A program made the position numbers and the translations under genes. A stretch of DNA of 64,000 nucleotides, from positions 149,466 through 213,465 of the forward strand of contig NZ_AOIS01000067.1 of the NCBI RefSeq assembly GCF_000337495.1, read 5' to 3'. The stretch comes from Haloterrigena salina JCM 13891. GTDB taxonomy: Archaea > Halobacteriota > Halobacteria > Halobacteriales > Natrialbaceae. This document shows, piece by piece, positions 43,048 to 59,978 of the stretch. Position 1 is the first letter of the stretch, and every line of letters begins with the position of its first letter. The notes under the pieces were generated by a model that saw nothing but the letters and a program-made list of their open reading frames with translations, did not search any database and was not told where the DNA came from.

Positions 43048-43146
43048 TTGCGATCCCTACGTCCGCCGGCGGAATAACTTGTGGGTCACGGACCCGGTAT
43101 GCGCCTGTGAGACACGGATCGACTGCAGAACGGTGACCGGTCCACT

Positions 43147-43348
43147 GCGGTGGCGCGCGCTGTGCCGCGGTGAACATGCGAGGCGCGAGGGAACCGAGCG
43201 CCTCGAGAAACGAGCGGGGACCGAAGTGACCCGCGAGTAACTGGTGAACCGCGGTACAAACGCGTGCGAGGGATGAGTGAGTGAACGAAGCGAACGAGCG
43301 AATCGGGTGGGGAGGGTGTGGTAATCCCCGTTGCCACGATAGCAGGGG
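43147..43348 (+). repeat. Dispersed haloarchaeal repeat, copy A
   Basis: The gap between the ThiR-type gene and dcd holds no gene. It contains one copy of a repeat that also occurs at 58121-58260 and, inverted, at 58313-58455. Shared parts are ggtggcgcgcgctgt at the left end, gtgcgagggatga (43264), then a variable stretch of gagtga/gaacga words, and finally ggggagggtgtgg with gccacgatagcagg at the right end. This copy has an extra 60 bases that include the 27-base repeat seen at 1851-1877. Confidence 0.75.
43211..43237 (+). repeat. 27-base dispersed repeat, second copy
   Basis: Matches 1851-1877 at 25 of 27 positions. It lies inside repeat copy A and is missing from copies B and C, so it may be an independent inserted word. 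Confidence 0.6.
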
Positions 43349-43429
43349 TACTCGTGGCGGTAATCTCACCGATACGACGGACGGACCGTTCTCTATCGGT
43401 ATCGCACGGAATACGGTATCGAACCCGAA

Positions 43430-45008: not shown

Positions 45009-45052
45009 TCGCGATAGTCAGGGCTAAAGGCGTTCCCGTCCTCTCCTCGGCC

Positions 45053-45391: not shown

Positions 45392-45479
45392 GCGCGATCG
45401 ACGGCTCGGCGTCCGCGGATCGTTTCAACTGTCATACACCAGTAGATACTTCCCTTCGGGAGAATTCTCGTAAAATACA

Positions 45480-45737: not shown

Positions 45738-45747
45738 GACGCGACGC

Positions 45748-45993
45748 TTAGAGCGCCAGCCAGATCGCCGCGCCGACGAGCACCACCGAGACGACGATCG
45801 CGCCGACGCGAGCCGTTCGCTCCTCGAGCGGTCCGTCGAGGAACGTAAGCGCCAGGAAGTACACCGGAACGAGGGCGATACCGAGCAGGAACCCGATGCC
45901 GGGAAGCTCGCCCCTAATGAGCGCCACGATCACGATCCCGGCGGCCATACTGACTGACAGCTTGAGCGGCCAACGAGGATCCGCCGTCTCCAT
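45748..45993 (-). CDS. Small membrane protein
   Basis: An 81-residue protein with two or three membrane helices: LKLSVSMAAGIVIVALI, GIGFLLGIALVPVYFLALTFL and VGAIVVSVVLVGAAIWLAL. A short cytosolic acid/base loop (DGPLEERTARV) joins the last two. The ATG at 45993 was taken because residues upstream are basic. Family unknown. It lies on the opposite strand between the PRC-barrel-like gene and truD. Confidence 0.65.
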   Translation of the reverse strand: METADPRWPLKLSVSMAAGIVIVALIRGELPGIGFLLGIALVPVYFLALTFLDGPLEERTARVGAIVVSVVLVGAAIWLAL

Positions 45994-46127
45994 ACGTTCC
46001 GATTCGGTCAACTCGTTGATAACTGGTTCGGTCGCGTCGGTGGCCGCTCTCGAGGCCCGGCTCCGAGACGGCGCGACCGCGAGAACGAACCGATTTATCC
46101 CCGGCCGCCTAAGCGCCGCCATCCAGC

Positions 46128-47507
46128 ATGCGCCCGGCACATTCCACGGAGCAGGCCGTCGGCATGGAGCACTACGTCACCGATACCGACGGCGTCGGCG
46201 GCCGCCTGCGAGCGGACGACGACCACTTCCGCGTGCGCGAACGCGAGCGCTTCGACACCGAACCCGTCGACGCGCCGACGGACGCCTACCCCTACCTCGT
46301 CGTTCGCGCGACGCTGTCGGGCTGGGACACCAACGACTTCGCCGGCCGGCTCTCGGACGCGATCGGCGTCTCCCGCGAGCGGGTCAACTGGGCCGGGACG
46401 AAGGACAAGTACGCGGTCACCACGCAGCTGTTCTCGATCTACGGCGCCGACCCCGAGGATCTCCCAGAGGTCCGCGGCGCAGACATCGAGATCGTCGGCC
46501 GCGCGGGCCGGTCGCTCGAGTTCGGCGACCTCGCGGGCAACGAGTTCGAACTGGTCGTCAGCGACCCCGACGACCCCCAGCGCGCGACCGAGATCACGGA
46601 CGAACTGCACGCCTTCGGCGGCCTCGAGGACGGCACCGACGAGACGGATGACGACGCGGCCGGCGACGAGACGACCGTCTCGATCGGCGTCCCCAACTTC
46701 TTCGGCCAGCAGCGCTTCGGCAGCCGCCGCCCGGTCACCCACGAGGTCGGCCTCGAGATCGTCCGCGACGACTGGGCCGGCGCGGTGATGGCCTACCTCG
46801 GGAACCCCGCCGACGCGGAACCCGAGTCCACGCAGGAGGCCCGCGCGTTCGTCGAAGAGACCCGCGACTGGCAGGAAGCCCTCGAGCGCTTTCCCAATCG
46901 CCTGCGCTACGAGCGCTCGCTCTGTCACGGGCTCGCCGAGGTCGACGGCGACCCCGACCCCGAGGACTACCGCGCGGCCCTCGAGCGCCTGCCGTCGAAC
47001 CTCCAGCGGCTGTTCGTCCACGCCGCCCAGTCGTACGCGTTCAACCTGATGCTCTCCGAGCGCCTCGAGCGCGGGCTCCCGTTCGACGAACCCGTGGAGG
47101 GAGACGTGGCCTGCTTTGCCGACACCGACTCGCCGGCGGGGCTCGAACTGCCCGATACCGACCGCCTCCAGCGGGTCACCGACCGTCGCGTGCGCTCGGT
47201 CCGGCGCCACTGCGAGCGCGGCCGGGCGTTCGTCACCGCGCCGCTGGTGGGCACCGAGACGGAGCTCGCCGACGGCGAGCAGGGCGAGATCGAACGCGCC
47301 GTCCTCGACGAACTGGACCTCGAGCCCGCCGACTTCGACCTGCCGGGCGAGTTCTACTCGAGTGGCACCCGGCGCGCGATTCTGGTTCGGACGACCCTCT
47401 CGCTCGGGACCGAGCCGCTGACTCTCTCGTTCGGTCTGCCGAAGGGGTCGTACGCGACGGTTGTCTGCCGGGAGTACCTGAAGGTCGATCCGGTCGACCT
47501 GGGATGA
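46128..47507 (+). CDS. truD: tRNA pseudouridine(13) synthase TruD
   Basis: A 459-residue TruD enzyme that converts uridine 13 in tRNA to pseudouridine. The catalytic Asp lies in [20 protein letters not shown], and other motifs are [20 protein letters not shown] (as [14 protein letters not shown]) and the TRUD insertion domain in the middle (about 220-390), ending with [20 protein letters not shown]. The N-terminus [19 protein letters not shown] has the usual archaeal form. An Asp/Glu-rich loop ([15 protein letters not shown]) is a halophilic insertion. It follows the pth2 region, a common haloarchaeal arrangement. Confidence 0.94.
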
Positions 47508-47515
47508 GGCGGAGG

Positions 47516-47520
47516 TTTTT
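47516..47520 (+). terminator. Possible T-tract terminator after truD
   Basis: Five T residues follow 8 bases after the truD stop codon, before the ATG of the next gene at 47545. Confidence 0.3.
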
Positions 47521-47544
47521 GAGGCCCTGTGGCGAAGTGAATCT

Positions 47545-47934
47545 ATGACTTCGGGAGGCCACGGATTCGTCGCGGATCGGAACGATCACGACGACCGACG
47601 CGACCGCGATGATGGCGCCGCCGAGCGGGGAACCGGCGTCGTCGGAACGAGCGGGGACCGCGCGCTCGTCGACTGGCGGAAACTGGACGTCGACGGGGCG
47701 ACGGTGTACGAACTCGAGTACGACCAACCGGCGCCGGAGCCGACGACCCGCGCGCCGACGTTCGGGCCGACCAGCGGCGGGACGGTACCCAGTCGCGAGC
47801 AGTCGGTTCGGCTGCCCGACGGCGAGCGGATCCCCGCGACCGAAGCGGCCTTCGAAACCGAGGGGACGACGCTTCGCGTCCGCCGCGAGGAGCCGTCGCT
47901 CCTCGCCCGCCTCCGCCGGTTTGTTCCGTGGTAA
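47545..47934 (+). CDS. Uncharacterised small acidic/basic protein
   Basis: A 129-residue protein of unknown family. The first 45 residues are His/Asp/Arg-rich and low-complexity (HGFVADRNDHDDRRDRDDG); the rest is beta-prone with proline-rich linkers (APEPTTRAPTFGPTSGG). The C-terminus LLARLRRFVPW is amphipathic and might touch a membrane or partner. It sits tail to tail with the membrane gene at 47945. Evidence for coding is frame openness, a good start after a T-tract and in-frame G/C third positions; function is not evident. Confidence 0.55.
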   Translation: MTSGGHGFVADRNDHDDRRDRDDGAAERGTGVVGTSGDRALVDWRKLDVDGATVYELEYDQPAPEPTTRAPTFGPTSGGTVPSREQSVRLPDGERIPATEAAFETEGTTLRVRREEPSLLARLRRFVPW

Positions 47935-47944
47935 CGTCCGGTTC

Positions 47945-48472
47945 TCACGCGAGCGCATCCCGGAGAACGATGCCGAAGCCGGCGGCGCCGACGCAGAGCG
48001 AAATGAGACCGCCGATCCCCGTCAGCGCGAGCGCACCGTTGATGGCTGCGGCGACGAGCAACGGCGTCAGCCAGCCGTCGTCGCGGCCGACCAGCCGCTC
48101 GGCGATGGCGAGGTAGCCGATGGCGGCGCCGACCGCCCACACCAGGTAGGCGACGACGACGAGCGGAATCGCGACGAGGATGCCGACGATGGTGATGACC
48201 AGCAGGAACGTCAGGAGACCGAGGCCGAGCAGCGAGAGGATCCCGTAGAGGAAGCCGCCGATGGGGTCCTCGATCACGGCGGCCATCATCCGTTCGGTGT
48301 ACCCGGGGGCGATCGCGACCAGAATCGCGCCGACGACCAGCGTCGTCAGGAACGCGCCGATCGCGCCGCCGGCGAGCCCGACCGGCGTGCCGACGTCGAC
48401 GTCGACTCCCGGGTTCGGATTCGCCTGTGCGATCGAGACGGCCATCGTGACGGACTGAACGAAGTCGATCAT
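47945..48472 (-). CDS. Membrane protein with four helices, uncharacterised
   Basis: A 175-residue integral membrane protein. Helices: VGLAGGAIGAFLTTLVVGAI, FLYGILSLLGLGLLTFLLVI, TIVGILVAIPLVVVAYLVW and LVAAAINGALALTGIGGLIS. The glycine-rich start (NPGVDVDVGTP) would face outside. This looks like the membrane domain placed beside or after bactofilin-like proteins in other prokaryotes, but no bactofilin is encoded nearby. Function unknown. It is divergent from the zinc-ribbon gene, 166 bases apart. Confidence 0.7.
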   Translation of the reverse strand: MIDFVQSVTMAVSIAQANPNPGVDVDVGTPVGLAGGAIGAFLTTLVVGAILVAIAPGYTERMMAAVIEDPIGGFLYGILSLLGLGLLTFLLVITIVGILVAIPLVVVAYLVWAVGAAIGYLAIAERLVGRDDGWLTPLLVAAAINGALALTGIGGLISLCVGAAGFGIVLRDALA

Positions 48473-48638
48473 ACGTCCCGTAGGACGCGCTCGAGGGTAA
48501 ACTGGCGCATTTCATCAGCGAGTGCGAACGTCCACTCGGCGAGTGCGATCGCGACACGGACGACCGAGCGACTGGGGCCGCGACGGCGCGAGCGACGACC
48601 GCTACTAGGCTTTTGTCCGCTGGAGTCCTACAACCCCC

Positions 48639-49148
48639 ATGCGCAGAACATCCGCGCGAAGTACCCGACTGCAACGGGAGATCGACGAGCTCGTCGCTCG
48701 GGGGTGGACGATCGAGGAGGAGGCGCCCGACCACGTGGTGATGATCGATCGGGAGTTCGGCTCGCTGGTCTCGCACCTGCTGGTCGCGATCCTGACGTTC
48801 TGGTTCTCGATGGGCGTCGGAAACGTCGTCTGGGGTGCCTACAACTACGTCGCGAACTCCCAGCGGCGCGTCCTCTGGGAGGATGGCCAAGAATGTCCGA
48901 ACTGCGGCGCCAGCGCCTCGCCGGACGCCGCCTACTGCCCGGACTGCGGCGAGGACCTCGCGAGCGGACGCGACTCGAGCGCCACCGTCGTCTGTCCCGA
49001 CTGCGAGGCCGCCGTCGACGCGGGCTCGCGGTACTGTCCGAACTGCGGGACGAGACTCGCCGACGCGGTCGGAGAGCGGACCGACGCGGTCGACAGTGGG
49101 GCCGGCGCGGTCGACGACAGGACTGACACGTTCGACACCGGTTCCTGA
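48639..49148 (+). CDS. Membrane-anchored double zinc-ribbon protein
   Basis: A 169-residue protein. After a basic N-terminus with an amphipathic helix (RLQREIDELVARGWTIEE) comes one or two membrane segments (SLVSHLLVAILTFWFSMGVG, VVWGAYNYVA). The C-terminal half holds two CxxC zinc ribbons of the DZANK type: CPNCGASASPDAAYCPDCG and CPDCEAAVDAGSRYCPNCG. The tail is acidic. It may bind another protein or nucleic acid at the membrane; this arrangement is common among haloarchaeal proteins of unknown role. surE follows after 71 bases. Confidence 0.75.
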   Translation: MRRTSARSTRLQREIDELVARGWTIEEEAPDHVVMIDREFGSLVSHLLVAILTFWFSMGVGNVVWGAYNYVANSQRRVLWEDGQECPNCGASASPDAAYCPDCGEDLASGRDSSATVVCPDCEAAVDAGSRYCPNCGTRLADAVGERTDAVDSGAGAVDDRTDTFDTGS

Positions 49149-49219
49149 GCCGCCCGCGGACGCGTCGTCGCGGAACCGAACCGATAGGTAGCTCGCCGTC
49201 CATGCCACGACTACGACGA

Positions 49220-50056
49220 ATGGATCCCCACGACGCGCCCCACGTCCTCCTGACGAACGACGACGGGATCGACGCGCCCGGCATCCGGGCGCTGTACGAC
49301 GCCCTGACCGAAGTCGCGACGGTGACCGTCATCGCGCCCGACCGCAACCAGAGCGCCGTCGGCCGGTCGCTCTCCTACGGGCGGACCGGGTCCGAGAGCG
49401 ACGACCGCTCGATCGACCTCGAGGCCGACGGCTTCACCTCGCCGGTCCCCCACGCCGACCACGAACTCGGCTACGCCGTCGACGGGACGCCCTGCGACTG
49501 CGCCATCGTCGGCGTCAACGCCCTCGAGCCCCGACCCGACCTCGTCGTCTCCGGCTGCAACTCCGGGGCGAACCTCGGTTCTTACGTCTTCTCGCGGTCG
49601 GGGACCGTCAGCGCCGCCATGGAGGCCGCCTTCCTCGGAACGCCCTCGATCGCCGTCTCGATGGACACGCTGGGCATGGAGTCGGAACTCGAGCCCGCGG
49701 ACTTCGCCCACACCGGCGAGATCGCCGCCGCGCTCGTCGAGGGGACGCCCGGAACCGGCCTGTTCGACCGCGTCGACTACCTGAACGTCAACGTCCCGCG
49801 ACCGGACGTCGAGAGGGAAGGGTTCGAACTCACCCGGCCGACAGAGGTGTACGAGATGGATGCGGCCCTCGAGAACGGGGAGTTCCAGCTCACGAACCGG
49901 CTCTGGCAGCAGATGGCCAACCGCGACATCCCCGATCCCGAGGACACGGACCGCCACGCGCTGCTCGAGGGGCAGCTCTCGGTCTCGCCGATGCGGGTCC
50001 CTTACGACGTCGTGGAAACGGACGCGGTGGCGAAGATTCTCGAGGACGTTCTGTAG
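49220..50056 (+). CDS. surE: 5'/3'-nucleotidase SurE
   Basis: A 278-residue SurE phosphatase that removes phosphate from nucleoside monophosphates, metal-dependent and cytosolic. Motifs: HVLLTNDDGIDAPGIRALYD with the metal-binding Asp pair, APDRNQSAVGRSLSYG, and DLVVSGCNSGANLG with the metal-binding Asn. It ends VVETDAVAKILEDVL. An in-frame ATG six codons upstream (49202) is the alternative start; the shorter form begins MDPHDAPHVLL, nearer to the family start. The gene is followed by the DUF2103 protein 127 bases downstream. Confidence 0.92.
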   Translation: MDPHDAPHVLLTNDDGIDAPGIRALYDALTEVATVTVIAPDRNQSAVGRSLSYGRTGSESDDRSIDLEADGFTSPVPHADHELGYAVDGTPCDCAIVGVNALEPRPDLVVSGCNSGANLGSYVFSRSGTVSAAMEAAFLGTPSIAVSMDTLGMESELEPADFAHTGEIAAALVEGTPGTGLFDRVDYLNVNVPRPDVEREGFELTRPTEVYEMDAALENGEFQLTNRLWQQMANRDIPDPEDTDRHALLEGQLSVSPMRVPYDVVETDAVAKILEDVL

Positions 50057-50183
50057 CGGCCGCCGGGCCGCAGAACGAGGGAGTGCGGAGCGGTACCGAC
50101 GACGCGACCGTCGCCGGAAGCGGGTCGTGGACCGGATTGGTCGAAAACGCGCCTGTTTTACATCCCTCTCCCGAACGGTCGAT

Positions 50184-50945
50184 ATGGAGTGTCGCCACTG
50201 CGCATCGCCGCTCGAGAAACCCGGCGATTTCTGTCTCGTCTGCCGGGAAGCCAACACGGAAGCGATCGTCCTCGAGGCGGCACGCGAACGCGCGACACTG
50301 ACGATGCTCGCGGCCGACGGTGACGGCGGAGACGGCGCCGACTCGGCGAGGCGGGACGACGATCCGATTCTGGGCGAGACGACGATCACCACGATGCCCG
50401 AAGACGGCGAGAACGAGGTCGTCGAACTCCGGAACTTCGCGGGGTTGATCGGCGACGAGATCCGCCGGAAACGACCCGAAGAGGTCTACGCCGGCGGCGA
50501 TCGGGCGGTGATCCAGGCCGTCCGCGAGGACATCCACCACCAGTTCTACCGCGTCGAGGACGAGGAACCCGTCGACGCCGTCCTCGAGCGGCGGGGCAAC
50601 CGCGCGCTGGACGTCGTCCAGACGCCGCCCGCCGAAAAGATCGGCGGCAGCCACTCGACGCTGATCGGCGGGCGAACGGGAATGCGGGCGATCCGTACCG
50701 TTGCCGGCCACCCCCACGTCAAGAAGGTCATTCCGGGGCCGATCGACGCCGGCGGGAAGGGCTCCCAGTCGGGGCTTCGCGCAAAAGTTACCCGCGCAGA
50801 CGACGGCGGCAACGTTCGCATGCTCCTGCGGGACGGCTCGAGCGTCCAAGAGAACCGGGTCGTCACGACCGCGCGCGATCGGGAGATGGGCGAGCGGATC
50901 CGCGAGGACCTCAACGAAGTGCTGACCGACGCCGAGTTTCAGTAG
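50184..50945 (+). CDS. DUF2103-type predicted metal-binding protein
   Basis: A 253-residue protein matching what I know as DUF2103. It opens with a zinc ribbon: MECRHCASPLEKPGDFCLVC. After an acidic linker comes a conserved C-terminal domain of about 100 residues: GGSHSTLIGGRTGMRAIRTV, HPHVKKVIPGPIDAGGKG and KVTRADDGGNVRMLLRDGSS. The domain is basic for a haloarchaeal protein and may bind nucleic acid; that is inference. The start at 50184 is directly before the first Cys motif. Function is not known. Confidence 0.75.
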   Translation: MECRHCASPLEKPGDFCLVCREANTEAIVLEAARERATLTMLAADGDGGDGADSARRDDDPILGETTITTMPEDGENEVVELRNFAGLIGDEIRRKRPEEVYAGGDRAVIQAVREDIHHQFYRVEDEEPVDAVLERRGNRALDVVQTPPAEKIGGSHSTLIGGRTGMRAIRTVAGHPHVKKVIPGPIDAGGKGSQSGLRAKVTRADDGGNVRMLLRDGSSVQENRVVTTARDREMGERIREDLNEVLTDAEFQ

Positions 50946-51132
50946 CGTCCTCATCCGCTGCGAAAGCCCAATATCACCGTCGCTGTTATCGCAGTCGGAG
51001 CATCGTCGCCAGTGACGGCCGCGCCCGTTCTCGACGCCGTTCGCGTAAATATTGTCACTACCTGATGGAAGAGACAGTCTCTGCTGGTTCTCAGGCCCTT
51101 ATCAGACCGGGTGTAATTAGATATAATTAGCC

Positions 51133-51336
51133 ATGTTCGAGCGTCCCGACGCCGTGCTGGCTGCGATTCCGCTGCTCGCGTTGAGTGGGCTCGTCCTCCG
51201 ATCGGCTATCGCGCTGACGGGCATCGGGACGGGACTGCTGGCCGCTCCCCTCGCCCCCGTCGGCTACCTCGCCGCGCTGTCGCTCGTCTTCCGGGAACTG
51301 CTCGCCGGGCCGGTCGCCGAGGAGGCGACGGAGTGA
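51133..51336 (+). CDS. Small two-helix membrane protein
   Basis: A 67-residue protein with two hydrophobic helices: AAIPLLALSGLVLRSAIAL and TGLLAAPLAPVGYLAALSLV, and an acidic tail (GPVAEEATE). The start is preceded by an A+T-rich patch (gtgtaattagatataattagcc), a good promoter candidate. Family unknown; haloarchaea carry many such tiny membrane proteins. It lies upstream of the ribosomal gene, 111 bases away. Confidence 0.6.
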   Translation: MFERPDAVLAAIPLLALSGLVLRSAIALTGIGTGLLAAPLAPVGYLAALSLVFRELLAGPVAEEATE

Positions 51337-51412
51337 CCGCGAGCGGGGCGGACCGATCGCCGCCGGCGCGCTCATCCCTCACGCGGCGCGTCGAAGCCGG
51401 CCGAACTCAACA

Positions 51413-51422
51413 GGTTTAAGAA
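51413..51422 (+). promoter_or_regulatory. TATA-like box of the rpl37ae operon
   Basis: ggtttaagaa lies 26-35 bases before the ATG at 51448, spacing for a leaderless transcript of the rpl37ae-rpo12-pcc1 operon. Confidence 0.5.
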
Positions 51423-51447
51423 TCCGCTGCCGATAGCTAGCCCTACT

Positions 51448-51711
51448 ATGGCCAAGAAAGGAAACGTCGGTAGCGCGGGCCGGTTCGGTGCACGCTACGG
51501 TCGCGTCGCCCGACGTCGCGTCAGCGAGATCGAAGACGACATGCAGAGCGCCGAGGTCGACGGCGACGACGTCACCCGCGTCGGCACCGGCATCTGGAAG
51601 AACGAGGAGACCGGCGAGGTCTTCACCGGCGGCGCCTACCGTCCGGAGACCCCCGCCGGCCGCACCGTCAAGCGCTCGATTCGCGCAGCGCTCGCCGAGG
51701 ACGACGAGTAA
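51448..51711 (+). CDS. rpl37ae: Ribosomal protein L37Ae lacking the zinc-binding cysteines
   Basis: An 87-residue large-subunit protein. The N-terminus [19 protein letters not shown] and the C-terminus [20 protein letters not shown] are clearly L37Ae. In the middle, where most archaeal and eukaryotic L37Ae have a CxxC...CxxC zinc finger (consensus HxCPxCG ... WxCxxC), this protein reads [29 protein letters not shown] with no cysteine at all. Here acidic residues occupy the loop. It is a cysteine-less form adapted to high salt, fitted to the same place on 23S rRNA. It heads the operon with Rpo12 and Pcc1. Confidence 0.92.
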
Positions 51712-51726
51712 CCCTCTCGAGCCAGT

Positions 51727-51861
51727 ATGAGTTACAAGTGCTCCCGCTGTAAACGCGACGTCCAGCTCGACGAGTACGGTGGCGTCCGCTGTCCCTACTG
51801 TGGCCACCGCGTGCTCCTGAAAGAGCGCAGCCGGGACGTCAAGGAAGTCGACGTCCAGTAA
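51727..51861 (+). CDS. rpo12: RNA polymerase subunit Rpo12 (RpoP)
   Basis: A 44-residue zinc protein, too short for many gene finders. It reads [19 protein letters not shown] then [16 protein letters not shown]: two CxxC pairs that bind one zinc, exactly the Rpo12/RPB12 pattern, with a basic C-terminal tail ending VKEVDVQ. It is the archaeal counterpart of eukaryotic RPB12 and helps hold the Rpo3-Rpo10-Rpo11 assembly. It starts 16 bases after rpl37ae and ends 6 bases before pcc1, an order known in other haloarchaea. Confidence 0.95.
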
Positions 51862-51867
51862 CCGCGC

Positions 51868-52131
51868 GTGCCTTCTCACGACGCGACTCTCGAGTTCGAC
51901 TACGAGACGCCGTCTCGCGCACGGCTCGTCGCCGAGAGCGTTGCCCGCGAGGTCGGCGAGATTGACGACGACCGTTCGCAGACGACCATCGACCGCGACG
52001 GCTCGACCGTCCGCATCGAGATCGACGCCGCGGACGTGATCGCCCTGCGAGCCGCGTTGAACACCTGGTTTACGCTGGTCGACGTCGCCGAGCAAGCGGC
52101 CGATATCGGGATGGCGGCCCTCGAGACGTAA
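51868..52131 (+). CDS. pcc1: KEOPS complex subunit Pcc1
   Basis: An 87-residue Pcc1, the small dimerising subunit of KEOPS, which makes the t6A modification at position 37 of ANN-decoding tRNAs. It shows the family pattern of one beta-hairpin, helix, and the end TWFTLVDVAEQAADIGM, which packs against Kae1. The start is a GTG at 51868, 6 bases after rpo12; there is no nearby ATG. The adjacent genes match the usual haloarchaeal order. The other KEOPS genes (kae1-bud32, cgi121) are outside the window. Confidence 0.88.
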   Translation: MPSHDATLEFDYETPSRARLVAESVAREVGEIDDDRSQTTIDRDGSTVRIEIDAADVIALRAALNTWFTLVDVAEQAADIGMAALET

Positions 52132-52207
52132 GCGCCGCGATCGGCGCCGCTATCGACGGTGCAGGTGCTGGTTTTCGATTTTTGCCCGTCGGCGCCGAGG
52201 CATCGGT

Positions 52208-52708
52208 ATGGCGACGGCTGACAGCCTGCGGCGACGACTCCTGCTCGCGGGGGGAACGATCGGCTTCGGATTCGGCGCCGTCGTCGACACCGTGATCTTC
52301 CACCTCACGTTACAGACCCACCACCTCCTGTCGGGTTACTACGATCCCTACAGTCTCGACGGCTACCGGACGAACGTGATGTTCGACGGCCTGTTTCTGA
52401 TCGCCACGCTCGCCATCACGTGCGTCGGCTTCGGACTGCTCTGGCGCGTGGTCAATGGCACGGATCGGCGCTTCTCGACGACGTACCTGCTCGGCTCGGT
52501 TCTCGTCGGCGCGGGCGTGTTCAACGTCTACGACGGGGTCGTCGACCACTACGTGCTCGACCTGCACAACGTCGTCCACGGGACCGAAGCGTGGAACCCC
52601 CACTGGGTCGTCGTCAGCGTCATCATGCTCGCGCTCGGGCTGGGTCTCCTGCGAGTGGCCGACGGCGCCGTCCGGCCGAGAAACGCCGACACGGGACACC
52701 TCGAGTGA
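52208..52708 (+). CDS. DUF2243-type membrane protein
   Basis: A 166-residue protein with four membrane helices (RLLLAGGTIGFGFGAVVDTV, MFDGLFLIATLAITCVGFGL, TTYLLGSVLVGAGVFNVYDG and VVVSVIMLALGLGLLRVADG). The conserved histidine segment FHLTLQTHHLLSGYYDP and the GAVVDTVIF start, with the later DGVVDHYVLDLHNVVHG, are typical of DUF2243 membrane proteins, which may bind a metal through the histidines. The function is unknown. It stands between pcc1 and prefoldin beta, unrelated to them by any visible motif. Confidence 0.8.
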   Translation: MATADSLRRRLLLAGGTIGFGFGAVVDTVIFHLTLQTHHLLSGYYDPYSLDGYRTNVMFDGLFLIATLAITCVGFGLLWRVVNGTDRRFSTTYLLGSVLVGAGVFNVYDGVVDHYVLDLHNVVHGTEAWNPHWVVVSVIMLALGLGLLRVADGAVRPRNADTGHLE

Positions 52709-52732
52709 GAAACCGCGGCGCGTCGACCCCGC

Positions 52733-53827
52733 TTAGAGCGCGTCCAGCGCCACCGTCACCGAATCGCCCTCGAGAAACGCGGTTTCGTACCCCTCGTGGC
52801 GCGCCACCTGCGGCGGCGTCTCGAGGTCGATCGCGAGCTCGCCGCCGCCGTCGAGGAGGGACGGCTCGACGGCCGTCCGGTAGCAGTGGCCGAGCCTGGC
52901 GTCGATCGCTTCCTCGAGGTGCGCGCTCGCGACTCGTTCGCCGTCTCGGGAGATCGCCGCGGAGAGTGAGGCGAAGGGGAGCGGATACGCGTTGTGGACC
53001 GTTCGCGCCGTCACCGCCAGCGTCGGCCGGTCGGTTCGGGCTCGATCCGCGCCGAGGAGCGTCGCGGCGTACTCGACGTCGGCGCTCGTCGCGCGGCCGA
53101 GTATTGCTGCGGATTCCCGATCGCGCTTGTCACTGTTCTCCGCGCCGACGGCGTGATCCATCGGCTCGAGCGCGTCGGCCTCGCCGCGGCCCTCGTCCTC
53201 GTCGATCAACCGGCGCTCGATATCGTCGATCGCGTCGGTCTCGAACGCGAAGTCGATCTCGACGCTCGTCTCGGCCTCGAGGCCGTCGGCGACGCCGCCG
53301 ATCGCGTCCGCGGTCGTCGCCCCGATCCGGATCGTCGCGGTGTACGGGCCGTCGCCCTCGAGCGGAACGTTGTCGCCGTAGTGGGGCCCCATCCGCTGGG
53401 AGAGCATCGGCCAGAGCGACCGCTCGTCGACCGTGTCGGCGGCGTCATCGCTGTCGTCGGTAGCGTCGCCGCGCGTCCGGATCGCCGTCCGCACCGACGC
53501 CGGAACGAAGGTCCCGGTCTCGGCGTCCCGGACGGTTACCATCAGGTGGACGTCGTGACGGGAGCGGATATCCGCCCGATTGCGCTCGTCGTCGGCGACG
53601 ATCCAAAAGGAGTGCGGACGGGTCGCCAGCAGGGCAATCTCGCGCCCGCCGCCGGTCGCGGTCCCATAGGTCACCATTCCGTCGGCATGGGGCGGGACGT
53701 AGACGCCCTCGGGCGGATCGACGACGAGTTCGCGCCAGGCGTCCTCCCGGCGAAACGTCTCGAGGCAGCCGGCGGACAGCCCCGCGAGGAGGGCGCCGCC
53801 GGTCGCGAGCGCCGTGCGCCGTCGCAT
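52733..53827 (-). CDS. Secreted lipoprotein with a P19/Tp34 iron-transport-like domain
   Basis: A 364-residue lipoprotein: MRRRTALATGGALLAGLSAG followed by Cys21. The first 160 residues of the mature part carry features of the P19/Tp34 iron-binding family: VYVPPHADGMVTYGTATGG with a possible His ligand, HDVHLMVTVRDAETGTFVP, and LWPMLSQRMGPHYGDNVPL, close to the family's MPM...GPHYG motif, then PYTATIRIG. The second half is a different beta-rich domain. In bacteria these proteins bind iron or copper next to FTR1-type permeases; none is seen here. The start is fixed by the signal peptide. Confidence 0.65.
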   Translation of the reverse strand: MRRRTALATGGALLAGLSAGCLETFRREDAWRELVVDPPEGVYVPPHADGMVTYGTATGGGREIALLATRPHSFWIVADDERNRADIRSRHDVHLMVTVRDAETGTFVPASVRTAIRTRGDATDDSDDAADTVDERSLWPMLSQRMGPHYGDNVPLEGDGPYTATIRIGATTADAIGGVADGLEAETSVEIDFAFETDAIDDIERRLIDEDEGRGEADALEPMDHAVGAENSDKRDRESAAILGRATSADVEYAATLLGADRARTDRPTLAVTARTVHNAYPLPFASLSAAISRDGERVASAHLEEAIDARLGHCYRTAVEPSLLDGGGELAIDLETPPQVARHEGYETAFLEGDSVTVALDAL

Positions 53828-53902
53828 CGCCCGTTCAACGCCGTCGCGACGGATAGGCCTGCGGGCTGCTGGTGCCGACTTCCCGGTCGATGACAAAGCT
53901 TG

Positions 53903-53910
53903 GCTTTATC
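53903..53910 (+). promoter_or_regulatory. TATA-like box of the prefoldin beta gene
   Basis: gctttatc lies 25-32 bases before the ATG at 53935, leaderless spacing. Confidence 0.5.
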
Positions 53911-53934
53911 AGTCCGGAGGGCGACGGTCGAGGT

Positions 53935-54336
53935 ATGCAGGGTAATCTGCCGCCGGAAGCACAAGAGAAAATCGAACAGCTTCAGGACCTTCAGGAGACC
54001 GCACAGCAGGTCGCCGTCCAGAAGCAGGAAGCCGAATCGAACCTCACCGAAGCCGAGAACGCCCTCGAGGAGCTCGACGAGATCGACGCCGAGACGCCGA
54101 TGTACCGCAAGGTCGGCGAACTGCTCGTCGAGACCGAGTACGACGAGGCCGAGGAGGACCTCGAAGAGAAGGTCGACTCCCTCGAGATCCGACTCGAGAC
54201 CCTCGAGAAACAGGAAGAGCGCGTCCAGGATCAGTTCGAGGAGCTCCAGGACGAGCTCGAGGAACTGCTCGGCGGCGCCGGCGGCGGCATGGGCGGCCCG
54301 GCCGGTCCGGGCGGCCCGGGCGCAGGCGGCGCATAA
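53935..54336 (+). CDS. pfdB: Prefoldin subunit beta
   Basis: A 133-residue prefoldin beta, a jellyfish-shaped chaperone holding unfolded proteins for the thermosome. It has the family's two long coiled-coil helices ([20 protein letters not shown] and [20 protein letters not shown]) joined by a beta-hairpin ([20 protein letters not shown]). The C-terminus is a glycine/proline tail ([20 protein letters not shown]), an extension common in haloarchaeal copies. The start at 53935 begins [13 protein letters not shown], the family start. The DUF3194 gene follows immediately (taaatg), so they are one operon. Confidence 0.94.
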
Positions 54337-54597
54337 ATGTCGACCGGCGAACCGACCGACGAGGAGGTCGTGCAGACGGCCTCCGACGCTGCGGAAGGCT
54401 ACGTCTTCTCGCAGTACAAGCAATCGGCAGTGCGTGATCTCGACGTCACCGTCACCTTCGAGGACGGCGTCCTCGAGGTCGACGTCTATCTGAACGCGCC
54501 CGGAGGTCCGGACGAGGACGATCCCGACCCCGAACGGGTCGCCGACGACGCCGCGCTCGTCGCGCGGGACGCCGTCGACGAACTGTTCGGCGAGTAA
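54337..54597 (+). CDS. DUF3194-type small protein
   Basis: An 86-residue protein whose ATG directly follows the prefoldin stop codon. It is very acidic and has the pattern of DUF3194 proteins, which in archaea stand behind prefoldin beta: EEVVQTASDAAEGYVFSQYK, VRDLDVTVTFEDGVLEVDVY and a C-terminal helix DDAALVARDAVDELFGE. A helix-strand-helix fold with a link to the prefoldin system is suggested by this conserved neighbour, but no function is known. Confidence 0.8.
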   Translation: MSTGEPTDEEVVQTASDAAEGYVFSQYKQSAVRDLDVTVTFEDGVLEVDVYLNAPGGPDEDDPDPERVADDAALVARDAVDELFGE

Positions 54598-54978
54598 CGG
54601 TCGAAACCGACCCCCTTCTCGATTGCTCTCTCGACGGCGAGCAACGGGTATCGCGGTTGACCGCCGGTTGCAGCCGATGCGGTACGGGTATCACGTCCCG
54701 TCCGAGACGGAACCGATATCCGCGCGACTACTCGAGTCAGCGACTCGAGACGACCGAACCCGCGCCGATGACCCAGCCGGGTGTCGAGGCCATGCCGTTT
54801 TTATCCTTCTATCCGTTCTCGCGGCGGCCTCGAGGGACCGGAACACGACTACGAGAGAACACGCCGGTGGGGATCCTCGGGACTGTCGCAGCTAGCGAAC
54901 GATAGCGAAACCGACAGATGGATGACTGAGCGGTAGAGAACCGGTGACGGATCGACCGATGAGACGGCTCGAGTCGTC
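54598..54978. other. Intergenic region with a strong hairpin
   Basis: About 380 bases with no convincing gene; frames on the plus strand give short, basic or neutral peptides. ctcgagtc-agc-gactcgag (54731-54749) is a perfect 8-base stem with a 3-base loop, not followed by a T-run. Its position, 134 bases after the prefoldin/DUF3194 operon, could mark the transcript end. Confidence 0.4.
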
Positions 54979-55533
54979 CTACCGAGACTCGCAGATCTCG
55001 AGGAAGTTCTCGAATATTTCGTCGCCTTCCTCGGTGTGGGCGACCTCCGGGTGCCACTGGACGCCGTAGAGGTCGCGGTCGGTGTCGCTCATCGCCTCGA
55101 CGCCGCAGACGTCGCTCTCGGCGGTGAGTTCGAATCCGTCGGGCAGTTCTTTGACCTCGTCGGCGTGGCTCGCCCAGACGCGGGTTTCCGGATGGAGCGA
55201 CCCGGTCAGCGGGTCGTCGTCGTCGACGATCTCGACGTTCACGTCGGCGTAGCCGCCGTACTCGCCGCCGCCGACGCGGCCGTCGAGCTCCTCGGCGATC
55301 AGTTGCATCCCCAGGCAGATGCCGAGTACCGGTACGCCCGCCTCGAGGTAGTCGGCGGAGCGGCCGATCCGGTCCATGTCGGGGCCGCCGGAGAGGACGA
55401 CGCCGTCGGCGTCGACGTCTTCGGGCGGCGTCTCGTTATCGATCAACTCCGTGTCGACGCCGAGGTCGCGAAGGGCCCGGCGCTCTAAGTGGGTGAACTG
55501 TCCGTGGTTGTCCACCACGACGATTTTCGTCAT
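54979..55533 (-). CDS. guaAA: GMP synthase glutamine amidotransferase subunit
   Basis: A 184-residue class I glutaminase that supplies ammonia to the separate GMP synthase ATP-pyrophosphatase subunit, as archaea split the enzyme in two genes. The catalytic triad is visible: Cys in VLGICLGMQLIAEEL, His and Glu in GVQWHPEVAHTEEG. VVLSGGPDMDRIG and YADVNVEIVDDDD are family-like. The start MTKIVVVDNHGQFTHLERRAL is the family start. The partner subunit is not in this window. Its start codon is 232 bases from that of the small gene at 55766. Confidence 0.93.
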   Translation of the reverse strand: MTKIVVVDNHGQFTHLERRALRDLGVDTELIDNETPPEDVDADGVVLSGGPDMDRIGRSADYLEAGVPVLGICLGMQLIAEELDGRVGGGEYGGYADVNVEIVDDDDPLTGSLHPETRVWASHADEVKELPDGFELTAESDVCGVEAMSDTDRDLYGVQWHPEVAHTEEGDEIFENFLEICESR

Positions 55534-55742
55534 TGGAGGGTCCTAGCCAGTCACTCGGTAAAAACGGTCCGGAAACCGTCGTCGCCGCGCGCCGGTCGCC
55601 GTCTGTGCTCTTATTCGCTACTACGCCCCTTTTCAATTTACTTTCTCGGAATGTAACGGTGTTCCATGCATCTTATCGACAGAATCGGCCAAGAATAGGA
55701 ATCATCCAACCACCGTATAGTACGATACCAAAACGTTCATAC

Positions 55743-55757
55743 ATACTCCTGGAGTAT
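55743..55757. promoter_or_regulatory. Perfect 15-base palindrome before a small gene
   Basis: atactcc-t-ggagtat is a perfect 7+1+7 palindrome ending 8 bases before the ATG at 55766. A longer imperfect inverted repeat, agtacgatac (55719-55728) and gtatcgtgtact (55754-55765), encloses it. In a leaderless gene this would cover the transcription start, as a repressor operator would. Confidence 0.5.
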
Positions 55758-55765
55758 CGTGTACT

Positions 55766-55939
55766 ATGACACTCGAGGCCGGATCGGTCGGAAGTGAGTC
55801 GGCGACCGACGGCGATGTCGTCGCCGCGATCGACGAAATCGACGGTCAGCCGCATCTCGTGATCGCCGATATCGGACGGGACGACGTCTGGCTCTCGATG
55901 ACCGAGGAGGACGCCGCCTCGCTGGACGAGTGGCGATAG
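55766..55939 (+). CDS. Small acidic haloarchaeal protein
   Basis: A 57-residue acidic protein: a polar N-terminus, then GQPHLVIADIGRDDVWLSMT and an ending EEDAASLDEWR. The short beta-hairpin plus helix pattern recurs, as I recall, in small haloarchaeal proteins of unknown function. Its length makes it easy to miss. The strong palindrome before the start and a clear ATG support expression under tight control. No enzyme or DNA-binding motif is visible. It stands alone, divergent from guaAA. Confidence 0.65.
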   Translation: MTLEAGSVGSESATDGDVVAAIDEIDGQPHLVIADIGRDDVWLSMTEEDAASLDEWR

Positions 55940-56047
55940 CGCCACACCGCGGGTTTGCTGTCCCGATGGCGGTGTCCGGTTCGCAACTAACAGCAACCGG
56001 TTCCGGGTTCCGGTACGCTTATACGCATCTCACGGAACGATACCAGT

Positions 56048-56185
56048 ATGGCAATCGATCTCAGTGAGTTCGATCATCCGGCGTGGCTCACCGCGGCCGG
56101 CGCGGGTCTCGGGTATCTGCTGATCCTCGCCGTGTTCACGGTCGCCCTGTTTGTCGTGCCGTACGTCGTCTTCACGACGCTATAG
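56048..56185 (+). CDS. Very small single-helix membrane protein
   Basis: A 45-residue protein: an acidic amphipathic start (MAIDLSEFDHPAWLTAAG), then one hydrophobic helix from GLGYLLILAVFTVALFVVP to YVVFTTL. The A+T-rich stretch just before (ggtacgcttatacgcatctc, 56011-56030) supplies a TATA-like signal at leaderless distance from the ATG. It would cross the membrane once; no family is known to me. It is between the 57-residue gene and the convergent pan gene. Confidence 0.6.
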   Translation: MAIDLSEFDHPAWLTAAGAGLGYLLILAVFTVALFVVPYVVFTTL

Positions 56186-56352
56186 TCGGTCCGCGTCCGG
56201 ATTCGGACTCGCACGAGTACCCTCGTTTTACCTTCAGGGTGGGGTTGTCTCTTCCGCTTCGAGCCGATAGCACGGCGCTCGAGGCGAAGTGTATCCGAGT
56301 AGCCCTCGGAACGCGTCGCTCTCGAGAGATGAAAACGGAGAGAGAAACTCGT

Positions 56353-57570
56353 CTAGGCGAAGGTCTTCGAGACGTCCTCGGTCTCGTCCGAGTCGGCTTG
56401 GACCTTGTCCCAGGCGCTGTGGAAGTCCTTCATACGGATTTCCGTGCGGTCGTCGCGGATAGCGAACATGCCGGCCTCGGTGCAGATCGCCTTGATGTCG
56501 GCCCCGGAGGCCTCCTCGACGTCCTCGGCCAGGTCGCCGAATTCGACGTCGTCGGCGACGTTCATGCCGCGGGTGTGAATCTTGAAGATGATCTCACGTC
56601 CCTCGGCGTCGGGCTTGGGGACCTCGATGAGGCGGTCGAACCGACCGGGCCGGAGGATCGCGCGGTCGAGCATGTCGAAGCGGTTGGTGGCGGCGATAAT
56701 GCGGATCTCGCCGCGTTCCTCGAAGCCGTCCATCTCCGAGAGGAGTTGCATCATCGTCCGCTGGACCTCGGCGTCCCCGGAGGTTTTGGACTCCGTTCGC
56801 TTGGCGGCGATGGCGTCGATCTCGTCGATGAAGATGACGGCGGGCTCGTGCTCGCGGGCGACGTCGAAGAGGTCGCGAACGAGCTTCGCGCCCTCACCGA
56901 TGAATTTGTGGACCAGCTCGGAGCCGGCCATCTTGATGAAGGTCGCGTTGGTCTCGTTGGCGACGGCCTTGGCGAGCATCGTCTTGCCCGTCCCCGGCGG
57001 GCCGTACAGCAGGACGCCGCTCGGGGGTTCGATCCCGACGTCGTCGAACATCTCGGGCTTCTCGAGGGGCATCTCGACGGTCTCGCGGACCTCCTGCATC
57101 TGCTCTTCTAAGCCGCCGATATCCTCGTAGCTGACCTCGGGGCTCTCGGTGACTTCCATCACGCGAGCGCGGACGTCGGTCTCGTTCGAGAGCGTCTTGA
57201 CGATCGACAGCGAGTTGTTGACGGCAACTCGGTCGTCGGGTCCGAGGTCCTCTCGCATCTCCTCGGTGACCTCCGTCAGCGCCTCCTGGTTGTTCCCGTG
57301 CTGTTTGATAATGACGCCCTCGTCCGTGAGTTCCTGGACGGTGGCGACGAACAGCGGCGACTGCTTGAGTTTCTTGTTCTCGTGGGTCAGTCGCTCGAGT
57401 TTCTGCTGGTACTTGTTGTTCTCGGCGTTCGCATCGAGGAGTTTGTCACGCATCTCCTCGTTTTGCGACTCGAGGACCTCCAGCCGTTCCTCGAGCGCCT
57501 GGATCTTCTCCTGTTGGGACGCCTCGTCCTCGTCGTATGGGAGGTCGACGTCGTCCACAGTGTCGCTCAT
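56353..57570 (-). CDS. pan: Proteasome-activating nucleotidase PAN
   Basis: A 405-residue AAA+ ATPase that unfolds proteins and feeds them to the 20S proteasome. An N-terminal coiled coil (about 15-75, KIQALEERLEVLESQNEEMR) precedes the OB domain (PLFVATVQELTDEGVIIKQH) and the AAA domain with Walker A GPPGTGKTMLAKAVA, Walker B VIFIDEIDAIAAKR and the second-region arginine motif ILRPGRFDRLIEVPKPD. The C-terminus is TFA: phenylalanine stands where the docking motif HbYX normally has tyrosine. The start at 57570 begins MSDTVDDVDLPYDEDE. It is divergent from the winged-helix gene with promoters at 57590-57668. Confidence 0.95.
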   Translation of the reverse strand: MSDTVDDVDLPYDEDEASQQEKIQALEERLEVLESQNEEMRDKLLDANAENNKYQQKLERLTHENKKLKQSPLFVATVQELTDEGVIIKQHGNNQEALTEVTEEMREDLGPDDRVAVNNSLSIVKTLSNETDVRARVMEVTESPEVSYEDIGGLEEQMQEVRETVEMPLEKPEMFDDVGIEPPSGVLLYGPPGTGKTMLAKAVANETNATFIKMAGSELVHKFIGEGAKLVRDLFDVAREHEPAVIFIDEIDAIAAKRTESKTSGDAEVQRTMMQLLSEMDGFEERGEIRIIAATNRFDMLDRAILRPGRFDRLIEVPKPDAEGREIIFKIHTRGMNVADDVEFGDLAEDVEEASGADIKAICTEAGMFAIRDDRTEIRMKDFHSAWDKVQADSDETEDVSKTFA

Positions 57571-57589
57571 CACCCGACCTTTGGGGGCT

Positions 57590-57600
57590 GGTTCATAAGA
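57590..57600 (-). promoter_or_regulatory. TATA-like box of pan
   Basis: On the minus strand tcttatgaac lies 20-30 bases before the pan ATG at 57570. Confidence 0.45.
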
Positions 57601-57657
57601 GGCTTCGGGTAGGTGCACTCGCCTCGTAATATGAACGTCGCGCATTTTTTGAAACAG

Positions 57658-57668
57658 AAAATATTATC
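57658..57668 (+). promoter_or_regulatory. TATA-like box of the winged-helix gene
   Basis: aaaatattatc lies 26-36 bases before the ATG at 57694. Confidence 0.5.
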
Positions 57669-57693
57669 AGCCTGTATTCGAAACGGGAGGGTG

Positions 57694-57963
57694 ATGAGCG
57701 CTTCAGAATCGCTTCGACAGGAGCCCGAGGAGCGGGGAACGTGGGACGACGTCAGAGAGCTTCCGCCGAGTGCCAAGCTCGTCGCGAAGGTCCTCGAGTA
57801 CAACGACACGATGACCCAACAGCAGATCGCCGACGAGACGCTGCTGCCCTCCCGAACGGTGCGGTACGCCCTGAACCGCCTCGAGGAGGAGAACGTCATC
57901 GACTCCCGGTTCTCGTTTTCCGACGCCCGCAAGCGTCTGTACAGCCTCGAGATCGAATCCTAA
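57694..57963 (+). CDS. Winged-helix (MarR/TrmB-like) transcriptional regulator
   Basis: An 89-residue regulator that is essentially one winged helix: AKLVAKVLEYNDTMTQQQIA (helices 1-2), then the recognition helix DETLLPSRTVRYALNRLEEE and the wing NVIDSRFSFSDARKRLYSLE. The polar N-terminus (ESLRQEPEERGTWDDVRELP) is typical of small haloarchaeal wHTH proteins beside pan. It is divergent from pan with 123 bases between, so it may control pan, itself or both. The start at 57694 follows a TATA-like box at leaderless spacing; upstream in-frame codons were rejected as basic. Confidence 0.82.
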   Translation: MSASESLRQEPEERGTWDDVRELPPSAKLVAKVLEYNDTMTQQQIADETLLPSRTVRYALNRLEEENVIDSRFSFSDARKRLYSLEIES

Positions 57964-58120
57964 GTCGGAATCGACTCTCCTACTGCTCGACTACGCGGCG
58001 TTGCCGTTCGACGCTTCTCTTCGCGTCTCGTTTTTCGCGTCTCCGCTCACAGCGAGTTCGGTAGTCGATAGTAAACACCCACTGCGGAGTCGCTCCGGTC
58101 CGGCCGATTACGCTTTGATT

Positions 58121-58260
58121 ACGGTGGCGCACGCTGTCGATCGCGTCCGAGCGAGAGTGAAGACCGATCGACGACACCGTGCGAGGGATGATCGAACGAG
58201 CGTAGCGAGTGAGTGAATCGGCTGGGGAGGGTGTGGAAATCCCTGCTGCCACGATAGCAG
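58121..58260 (+). repeat. Dispersed haloarchaeal repeat, copy B
   Basis: This copy carries acggtggcgcacgctgt at its left end, gtgcgagggatga at 58179 and ggggagggtgtgg with gccacgatagcag at its right end. It faces copy C, so the two form a large inverted pair with about 50 bases between. The remainder of the 57964-58562 gap shows no gene on either strand; short frames here encode peptides such as AIVAAGISTPSPADSL that are translations of the repeat. Confidence 0.75.
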
Positions 58261-58312
58261 AAGTCTCTTCTCGAGGAGCAAATGAACGAGAAGGGCGTCG
58301 ATGAAACGTGGC

Positions 58313-58455
58313 GTCCTGCTGATTCTGGCAACGGGGAATCGCCACGCCCTCCCCAGCCGATTCGCTCGCACCTACTGTCGCTCGCTCATCCCTCGCACGG
58401 TGTTATCGTCCGCCCTCACTATCGTTCGGTCGGACGACAGCGCGCGCCACCGTAG
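58313..58455 (-). repeat. Dispersed haloarchaeal repeat, copy C (inverted)
   Basis: Read on the minus strand, this copy has acggtggcgcgcgctgt, gtgcgagggatga (58386-58398) and ggggagggcgtgg with a degenerate right end (tgccagaatcagcagg). It is the inverted partner of copy B and ends about 105 bases before the mre11 start codon, so it may overlap the mre11 promoter. Confidence 0.75.
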
Positions 58456-58562
58456 TACCGCCGTCTTGCCGAAACGTCCATCTCACAAACGGGACGACTG
58501 TCGGTTTCACTCTCACGTCGGTCACGGAACCCCTTTAGGGAGCGCCTGCCAACGACTGTGCA

Positions 58563-59978
58563 ATGACGCGGGTTATCCATACGGGCGATACCCACATCGG
58601 GTATCAGCAATACAACTCTCCACAGCGCCGCGAGGACTTCCTCGAGGCCTTTCGCTCGGTCGTCGAGGACGCGGTCGCCGACGACGTCGACGCCGTGGTC
58701 CACGCCGGCGACCTCTTTCACGACCGGCGGCCGAGTCTGGTCGACCTCCAGGGTACCGTCGAAATTCTGCGCACGCTCGACGACGCCGACATTCCCTTTC
58801 TGGCCGTCGTCGGCAACCACGAGTCGAAACGGGACGCCCAGTGGCTCGACCTCTTCGCGGATCTCGGGCTGGCGACCCGCCTCGGCGCCGATCCCGAGAT
58901 CGTCGGCGACGTCGCCCTCTACGGCCTCGATTTCGTCCCCCGGTCGCGCCGCGATGACCTCGAGTACGCGTTCGAACCGGTCCCCGACGCCGCCGAGCAC
59001 GCGACGCTGGTGACCCACGGCCTCTTCGAGCCCTTCGCACACGCCGACTGGGACACCGAGGAACTGCTCGAGGAATCCACGGTCGACTTCGACGCCGTCC
59101 TGCTCGGAGACAACCACAAACCCGACACCGCAGAGGTCATGGATACCTGGGTCACCTACTGCGGGTCGACCGAGCGCGCGAGCGCCAGCGAACGGGAGGA
59201 CCGGGGCTACAACCTCGTGGACTTCGACGCGGACGGCGGCGTCGCGATCAGTCGCCGCGGGCTCGCGGACACCCGCGAGTTCGTCTTCGTCGACGTCGAA
59301 CTCGAGGCCGGCGAGGGCGTCGACCGCGTCCAGGAGCGAGTTCGCCAGCACGACCTCGAGGACGCCGTCGTCATCGTCACCGTCGAGGGCGAGGGGAAGC
59401 CGATCACCCCCGCGACGATCGAGGAGGCCGCCATCGACCGCGACGCGTTGGTCGCCCGGGTCAACGACCGCCGGGAACTACCCGACGAGGACGAAGAGGT
59501 CTCCGTCAGCTTCGCCGACCCCGATGCGGCGGTCCGCGAGCGCGTTCGAGAACTGGGACTCAGCGACGCCGCCCGGAGCATCGACGAGACCGTCCGCGAC
59601 GACGACCTGGTCGACTCGAACGTCCGCGAGACCGTCGAGCGCCGCGTTCGCGACTTACTCGAGGACGACGAGTCGGCGTTCGATCCCGCGCCCGAACGCG
59701 CCCCCGAGGACGAGGACGTGACGACCGTCGCGGACGAACTGGCCGGCGACGACGCGAGCGGTGATTCCACGGCGGCTGCCGACGCGGAACCGACAGTAGC
59801 GAACGGCGGGGAAACCGCGGCCGCAAACGGTGGGGAAACCCCGTCAGCGGCCGACGATGAACCAGAACCCGAATCCGAGTCCGAGCCCGAATCCGAGGCG
59901 ACGGAGGACGACTCGAGCGAGGAACCGACGGACGACCCGGCCGACGCCGACACCGCCTCGCTGGGTGATTTCGCGTGA
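58563..59978 (+). CDS. mre11: DNA double-strand break repair nuclease Mre11
   Basis: A 471-residue Mre11, the nuclease of the Mre11-Rad50 complex that processes DNA ends. All metallophosphoesterase motifs are seen: VIHTGDTHIGYQQY (D-x-H), VVHAGDLFHDRRPS, VVGNHESKRDAQW, VTHGLFE and LLGDNHKP (GDxH; the usual GH(x)H reads GDNH). The C-terminal 130 residues form a long low-complexity acid/Pro/Ser tail (EPEPESESEPESEATEDD), a halophile-type extension. The start at 58563 is the family's MTRVIHTGDTH. The stop overlaps the rad50 GTG by 4 bases, so the two are one operon. Confidence 0.95.
   Translation: MTRVIHTGDTHIGYQQYNSPQRREDFLEAFRSVVEDAVADDVDAVVHAGDLFHDRRPSLVDLQGTVEILRTLDDADIPFLAVVGNHESKRDAQWLDLFADLGLATRLGADPEIVGDVALYGLDFVPRSRRDDLEYAFEPVPDAAEHATLVTHGLFEPFAHADWDTEELLEESTVDFDAVLLGDNHKPDTAEVMDTWVTYCGSTERASASEREDRGYNLVDFDADGGVAISRRGLADTREFVFVDVELEAGEGVDRVQERVRQHDLEDAVVIVTVEGEGKPITPATIEEAAIDRDALVARVNDRRELPDEDEEVSVSFADPDAAVRERVRELGLSDAARSIDETVRDDDLVDSNVRETVERRVRDLLEDDESAFDPAPERAPEDEDVTTVADELAGDDASGDSTAAADAEPTVANGGETAAANGGETPSAADDEPEPESESEPESEATEDDSSEEPTDDPADADTASLGDFA

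Follow-up and report, generated by a model that had tools for sequence, protein, structure and literature searches.

Dispersed intergenic repeats with a G.A-zipper hairpin in haloarchaea, including a facing pair upstream of mre11

Results

The window, a stretch of 64,000 nucleotides from Haloterrigena salina JCM 13891, contains three copies (A, B and C) of one repeat. The genes neighbouring B and C are ordinary and encode a winged-helix protein, an Mre11-type phosphoesterase followed by an AAA/SMC-type ATPase, a dCTP deaminase and a ThiN/HTH protein. The name mre11 was taken from the original prediction; the Pfam matches at the locus were to Metallophos and AAA domains. Copy C ends approximately 107 bases before the mre11 start (58563).

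The three copies had been predicted to share their ends and their internal order, and a sequence check and the covariance model R1 both recovered them at the predicted places in that form (Table 1). A second covariance-model search returned the same places, with the end of copy A four bases later. The R1 scores of B and C were among the six best in the genome. B and C were confirmed as an inverted pair, C lying on the opposite strand to B with the 3' ends facing. Two tail-to-tail units give a hairpin of approximately 340 bases. Folded as one strand of DNA, B-C reached -122 kcal/mol, compared with -66.2 +/- 4.5 in shuffled sequences (z -12.35), and stands out as any long inverted repeat would. 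Frames through the repeats had been suspected of giving false small proteins; the frame ATGITTPSPPDS does run on the minus strand across the conserved 3' part.

Table 1. Repeat copies in the window and their parts (window coordinates).
Feature	Position	Strand	Basis
Copy A, long form, palindromes nested within helix 1	43141..43353	+	R1 match, 107.2 bits
Copy A, conserved 5' end GGTGGCGCGCGC, 5' side of P1 (closing helix)	43149..43160	+	Sequence, 50-copy profile
Copy A, helix 1 enlarged by nested inserts to 102 nt (compact copies, about 40)	43161..43262	+	Covariation, RNA fold
Copy A, GA-zipper helix	43272..43304	+	Parsed zipper segments
Copy A, conserved 3' end GCCACGATAGCAG	43333..43345	+	Sequence, 50-copy profile
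Copy B, compact form, upstream member of facing pair	58115..58272	+	R1 match, 143.2 bits
Copy B, helix 1, variable covarying hairpin	58135..58177	+	Covariation test
Copy B, CGTGCGAGG, 3' side of P1 (closing helix)	58178..58186	+	Alignment, segment parsing
Copy B, GA-zipper helix, 33 nt	58187..58219	+	Parsed zipper segments
Copy B, conserved G-rich motif GGCTGGGGAGGGTGTG	58220..58235	+	Alignment
Copy B, conserved 3' end GCCACGATAGCAG	58248..58260	+	Sequence, 50-copy profile
Copy C, compact form, downstream member, 3' end toward B	58304..58459	-	R1 match, 147.7 bits
Copy C, GA-zipper helix, 32 nt	58359..58390	-	Parsed zipper segments

The B-C pair was compared by BLAST with its own genome (4.84 Mb, 71 contigs). 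The 94 matches at E<=0.001 place the repeat far beyond chance. R1, built on 28 compact copies, gave 90 matches at the same threshold. The prediction of a dispersed family is thereby upheld, and the case that only the copies in the window exist is excluded by these genome-wide matches.

Among 146 genomes sampled from the order Halobacteriales, 67 contained R1 matches (60 of the 122 more complete ones), as did 27 of 41 relatives. The search of the relatives scored up to 73 candidates per genome under filters stricter than those of the own-genome search, and in it six genomes of the same genus carried from at least 63 to at least 73 matches each. No copies were found in several genomes of the same family (G036, G063, G087 and G156). 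Within a collection of named genomes, an exact 23-base core pattern matched 57 stretches, almost all of them from Halobacteria, including Natrinema, Natronococcus, Halopiger, Halococcus, Halorussus, Halolamina, Halobium, Halorientalis, Halostagnicola, Salinigranum, Haladaptatus and others. Matches were also present on three haloarchaeal plasmids. Viral carriage was considered and rejected: no phage record was matched, and the exact-core pattern had no match in viral contigs. One typical copy (L123) lies on a metagenome contig labelled Bacteroidetes, which is probably a misbinned haloarchaeal contig.

The units measure approximately 128 to 263 bases and comprise two hairpins between conserved ends. 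On the sense strand the order is GTGCGGTGGCGCGCGC, a variable helix 1, CGYGCGAGG, a second hairpin, TCGGYTGGGGAGGGNGTGG and GCCACGATAGCAG. CGYGCGAGG pairs back to GCGCGC to form the closing helix P1. Long copies carry extra hairpins at fixed positions, either nested in helix 1 or ahead of the second hairpin. The end profile was drawn from 50 of the 62 copies scoring at least 75 bits, with the 3' end misplaced by the motif search in a few. In four loci from several other genera (L107, L113, L155 and L157) the unit is followed by a common stretch like GGGACTGAAAGGGGCC, which replaces GCCACGATAGCAG.

Helix 1 is freely variable in sequence yet self-complementary: across 44 copies the longest stem was 8.5 when the two arms came from one copy and 5.1 when they came from different copies. 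The centre of the unit had been described as a variable run of gagtga/gaacga words. Its sequence does vary, but the run was found to be a regular helix, namely the second hairpin. In this helix, here called the GA zipper, tandem G.A/A.G pairs separate successive blocks of two Watson-Crick pairs. Of 85 copies scoring at least 40 bits, 51 were parsed with both hairpins and 34 were left unparsed; 33 of the 51 had a compact zipper. Columns were numbered from both ends inward across these 33 copies. Columns 1-3 were Watson-Crick in 100, 100 and 82%, 6/7 in 79 and 81%, 10/11 in 84 and 90%, and 14/15 in 96 and 78%. The intervening columns were G.A/A.G in 97 and 91% (4/5), 87 and 94% (8/9) and 83 and 91% (12/13).

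The Watson-Crick columns vary on both sides; column 14, for example, comprised C-G 10, G-C 7, A-T 4 and T-A 1. Watson-Crick pairs filled 83% of 172 such cells, compared with a mean of 55.5% and a maximum of 64.5% in 1000 partner reshuffles. The same pattern was present in 51 distinct segments from named haloarchaea and MAGs, a set that excludes loci without a recognisable junction. Among 131 distinct zippers, 73 were 33 bases long and 16 were 25 bases long, a step of one four-base word per side. Of the odd-length zippers (n=108), 73 had a GNA centre, and in 53 this was C(GNA)G. DNA hairpins are made very stable by sheared G.A pairs in a YGAR context and by C(GNA)G loops. The G.A pairs of the zipper are presumed to adopt the sheared geometry.

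Zipper hairpins were also seen outside this family, with 14 in 1.12 Mb compared with 0-1 per shuffled stretch. Examples lie beyond the window on its own contig (C67:53339-53411 and 298405-298423) and at 98538 and 183640 of a stretch of the same-genus genome G150. Several belong to another repeat, in which they are preceded by CTTTTTTGGTCCAGATTTTTGC and followed by GGAAAAAGGTGG.

The prediction of a structured unit is thus borne out, both variable hairpins being backed by compensating changes. Fold energies of single units were no better than those of shuffled sequences; for five sense strands, z ranged from -1.88 to 0.45 when folded as RNA and between -2.76 and 0.43 when folded as DNA. The structural case is therefore built on covariation. 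Three further pairings were tried and rejected. A terminal helix joining both ends, or terminal inverted repeats, found no support, complementarity being 2.72 within and 2.61 between copies. A 3' hairpin TGG..CCA was present in 50 of 60 copies, but its inner pairs did not covary (2.04 against 1.87). A GGGGA-TCCCC pairing, as hairpin or pseudoknot, had no covariation support in an alignment read by eye, because the loop side varies and the G side does not.

The original prediction had also allowed for a structured RNA. Copies would then be transcribed alone or within an untranslated region, and would bind a protein or regulate their neighbours. The covariation on one strand agrees with this, although it cannot distinguish RNA from single-stranded DNA. 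Also in keeping with RNA are some T.G pairs in the Watson-Crick columns of the zipper, the conservation of a single-stranded G-rich motif, and the retention of structure at orthologous sites despite differing helix sequence. Several observations point the other way. A TATA-like TTTAWA box was found within 100 bases upstream in none of 50 copies. Copies between same-direction genes in the own genome showed no strand bias (15 sense, 17 antisense). Helix-1 tetraloops had no GNRA preference (third base a purine in only 12 of 34), and C(GNA)G loops are frequent in the zippers. No fitting Rfam match was obtained at E<=1 across 42500-59000 of the window (16.5 kb). The box, strand, GNRA and C(GNA)G results are each not decisive. 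RNA as the acting form is the less likely reading and on balance an unlikely one.

None of the 62 copies scoring at least 75 bits lay inside a gene, as judged with a simple purpose-built gene caller applied to the own genome. The 85 copies scoring at least 40 bits formed 68 loci, 52 of them single. Adjacent copies comprised 13 tail-to-tail and no head-to-head pairs; a further four neighbours in the same direction probably each represent one long copy that was matched twice. In unselected stretches of two same-genus genomes, tail-to-tail pairs were to head-to-head pairs as 3 to 1 (G150) and 1 to 0 (G146). The only head-to-head pair seen is at C1:3050943-3051304 of G150. No probability is given for the count of 21 of 22 pairs, because some of those pairs were chosen by eye.

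Close neighbours numbered 17, compared with approximately 2 under random intergenic placement (maximum 7 in 500 trials). Scores were higher for paired copies (115.6 bits, n=26) than for single ones (99.4 bits, n=52), with a permutation p of 0.010. Scars of a lost partner were sought beside single copies of the own genome and were found downstream in 2 of 51, at or below the 9% background.

Loci were classified by gene context (n=67), giving 24 convergent, 10 divergent and 33 same-direction. The corresponding length shares, for a background of three stretches totalling 1.12 Mb, were 21, 28 and 51% (chi-square p 0.005). Loci are thus enriched between convergent genes and depleted between divergent ones.

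Contig C67 (340 kb) was compared with the syntenic stretches of two genomes of the same genus, G146 (94.3% identical) and G150 (83.3% identical). All seven C67 loci recurred in at least one of the two, four in G146 and six in G150, and orientation was kept in 10 of 10 comparisons. With seven of seven loci at conserved sites, the family is mostly inherited vertically. The few copies in the G146 stretch all sit at sites occupied in the own genome; G150 has further loci without a counterpart in either. Three of the seven loci have been lost in G146. At 144 kb the interior of a pair was lost there between two GCGC words, as an internal deletion.

The pair at the mre11 locus was kept in G146, G149 and G153, the last being of another genus. 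G147 retains C and a stub of B, G148 retains B and a stub of C, and G150 has neither copy. Between the winged-helix gene and mre11, G150 (L165) instead has two small reading frames, which we take to be possibly a DUF433 antitoxin and its toxin. In G149 (L162), the helix-1 sequence of copy C runs the opposite way to that of the own genome and G146, read on the same strand, as though the hairpin loop had been flipped.

Helix 1 can differ entirely between genomes at one site: at 42 kb the flanks in the own genome and G146 are 98% identical and the helices differ; the adjoining spacer differs too. At 297 kb G146 has an inner hairpin module of approximately 50 bases that the own genome lacks. From these sequences it looks as if helix sequences and modules have been exchanged between copies, and gene conversion would be the source of such exchange. 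At the site of copy A, sequences read by eye diverge between the own genome and G146 at about the rate of the flanks. Copy A changes no less than its flanks, so strong constraint on it is not demonstrated.

These sites bear on whether the repeat serves the host, as an insulator, a terminator, or a nucleoid or replication boundary, or at transcript ends, under selection and with any mobility long past. Such a role would fit the seven loci sharing site and orientation with at least one relative, the mre11 pair in another genus, and the convergent enrichment with divergent depletion. It fits poorly with the loss of three of seven loci in a 94%-identical relative and with the many members of the family that have few copies or, like the four named above, none. 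Copies also follow no orientation rule toward genes, and most lack a T run at the 3' end in the 50-copy profile. A host site is judged improbable.

The suggestion of a small mobile element was not substantiated. Species share the positions of their copies, no transposase was found, and neither a clean empty site nor a target duplication came to light. Among the relatives compared, there was no clean filled/empty pair from which a target-site duplication could be read, intergenic DNA having been replaced around the sites. The Y1 transposase domain (PF01797) had no match in the own genome. A RAYT/Y1 transposase was rejected as partner for this genome, being absent from the copy-rich genomes G000 (the own genome), G146, G148, G005 and G008 and present in the copy-free G063 and G087; it does not track copy number, which argues against Y1 in this role. 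No matching larger IS element was seen in a search that covered the Y1 family. A composite transposon in which the unit would serve as the terminal repeat was also rejected, since distant facing copies in G150 and the own genome enclose genes that looked by eye like ordinary cellular ones.

The same results weigh on a further explanation, by which the units would be decayed ends of IS200/IS605-type transposons, like the PATEs of Haloquadratum. According to PMC3119063, PATEs are haloarchaeal elements without a transposase, with near-terminal palindromes and no target duplications, and to that extent they offer a precedent. Set against it are the lack of a Y1_Tnp match in the own genome and of any link to copy number, and a search by the Y1 gene family in which no full transposon with such ends was seen. 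Decayed ends of this type are very unlikely.

Discussion

The explanation we prefer, with confidence evenly divided for and against it, is that the units form a haloarchaea-wide, REPIN-like, non-autonomous family of modular, palindromic DNA repeats that fold as single strands and depend on a putative enzyme. The unit, typically of some 140-210 bases, would fold on one strand into a closing helix, the variable helix 1 and the GA-zipper helix, which in many cases ends in a C(GNA)G triloop; a conserved G-rich 3' part follows. The folded single strand would be DNA exposed in replication. The putative enzyme would recognise, or would once have recognised, the folded strand and so copy or move the unit. 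DNA rather than RNA would be the acting form, and the enzyme would presumably act in trans.

A more specific proposal is offered tentatively and with more doubt than confidence. The GA zipper may be the recognition structure of replicating haloarchaeal repeats, read as single-stranded DNA by a putative non-Y1 enzyme, and the same zipper may be a wider building block of intergenic DNA.

With approximately 90 copies per genome in some haloarchaea and representatives in many genera, the family is a common part of intergenic DNA. If the preferred explanation is true, archaea gain a REPIN-like system with a distinct fold, and the enzyme that reads this fold is to be sought. The covariance model is ready for annotation, from which one source of false small proteins is removed. 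No description of the family was found in the literature searched (haloarchaeal repeats, MITEs, PATEs, REPs, Haloterrigena and tandem G.A hairpins); subscription papers were sparsely covered, so one may be in print.

Among known systems, the BOX elements of pneumococci are likewise modular intergenic repeats with optional inner modules, but differ in sequence, size and phylum. Unlike a MITE of a DDE transposon, the present units show no support for terminal inverted repeats, the complementarity of their ends within a copy being no greater than that between copies. They resemble the PATEs and small mobile repeats of Haloquadratum in being transposase-free haloarchaeal repeats with palindromes (PMC3119063). 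PATEs are related there to IS605 ends, and no such relation was found here; the two are set apart by description and not by sequence.

Differences from bacterial REP sequences lie in both form and host. The units are approximately 150 bases long with two hairpins and a GA zipper, whereas a REP has 20-40 bases and one stem. No RAYT accompanies them, and the host is archaeal. The end profile of 50 copies contains no GTAG; after the 3' end it shows a weak GACG, which reads CGTC on the opposite strand. The available portion of the REP account in PMC3733652 names bacterial phyla and has no word starting 'halo'. CGTC-tagged REPs, as described in that portion, are alike in having no dedicated transposase and in forming dimers; they differ in their stems of 8-9 bp, their mostly head-to-head arrangement and their bacterial hosts.

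The units resemble the bacterial REP/BIME and REPIN sequences described in PMC3116915. Those sequences too are intergenic palindromes present in tens to hundreds of copies, both as singles and as inverted doublets that form a large hairpin. REPIN doublets are reported there to be better conserved than singles, and the higher scores of paired copies in the present family follow the same pattern.
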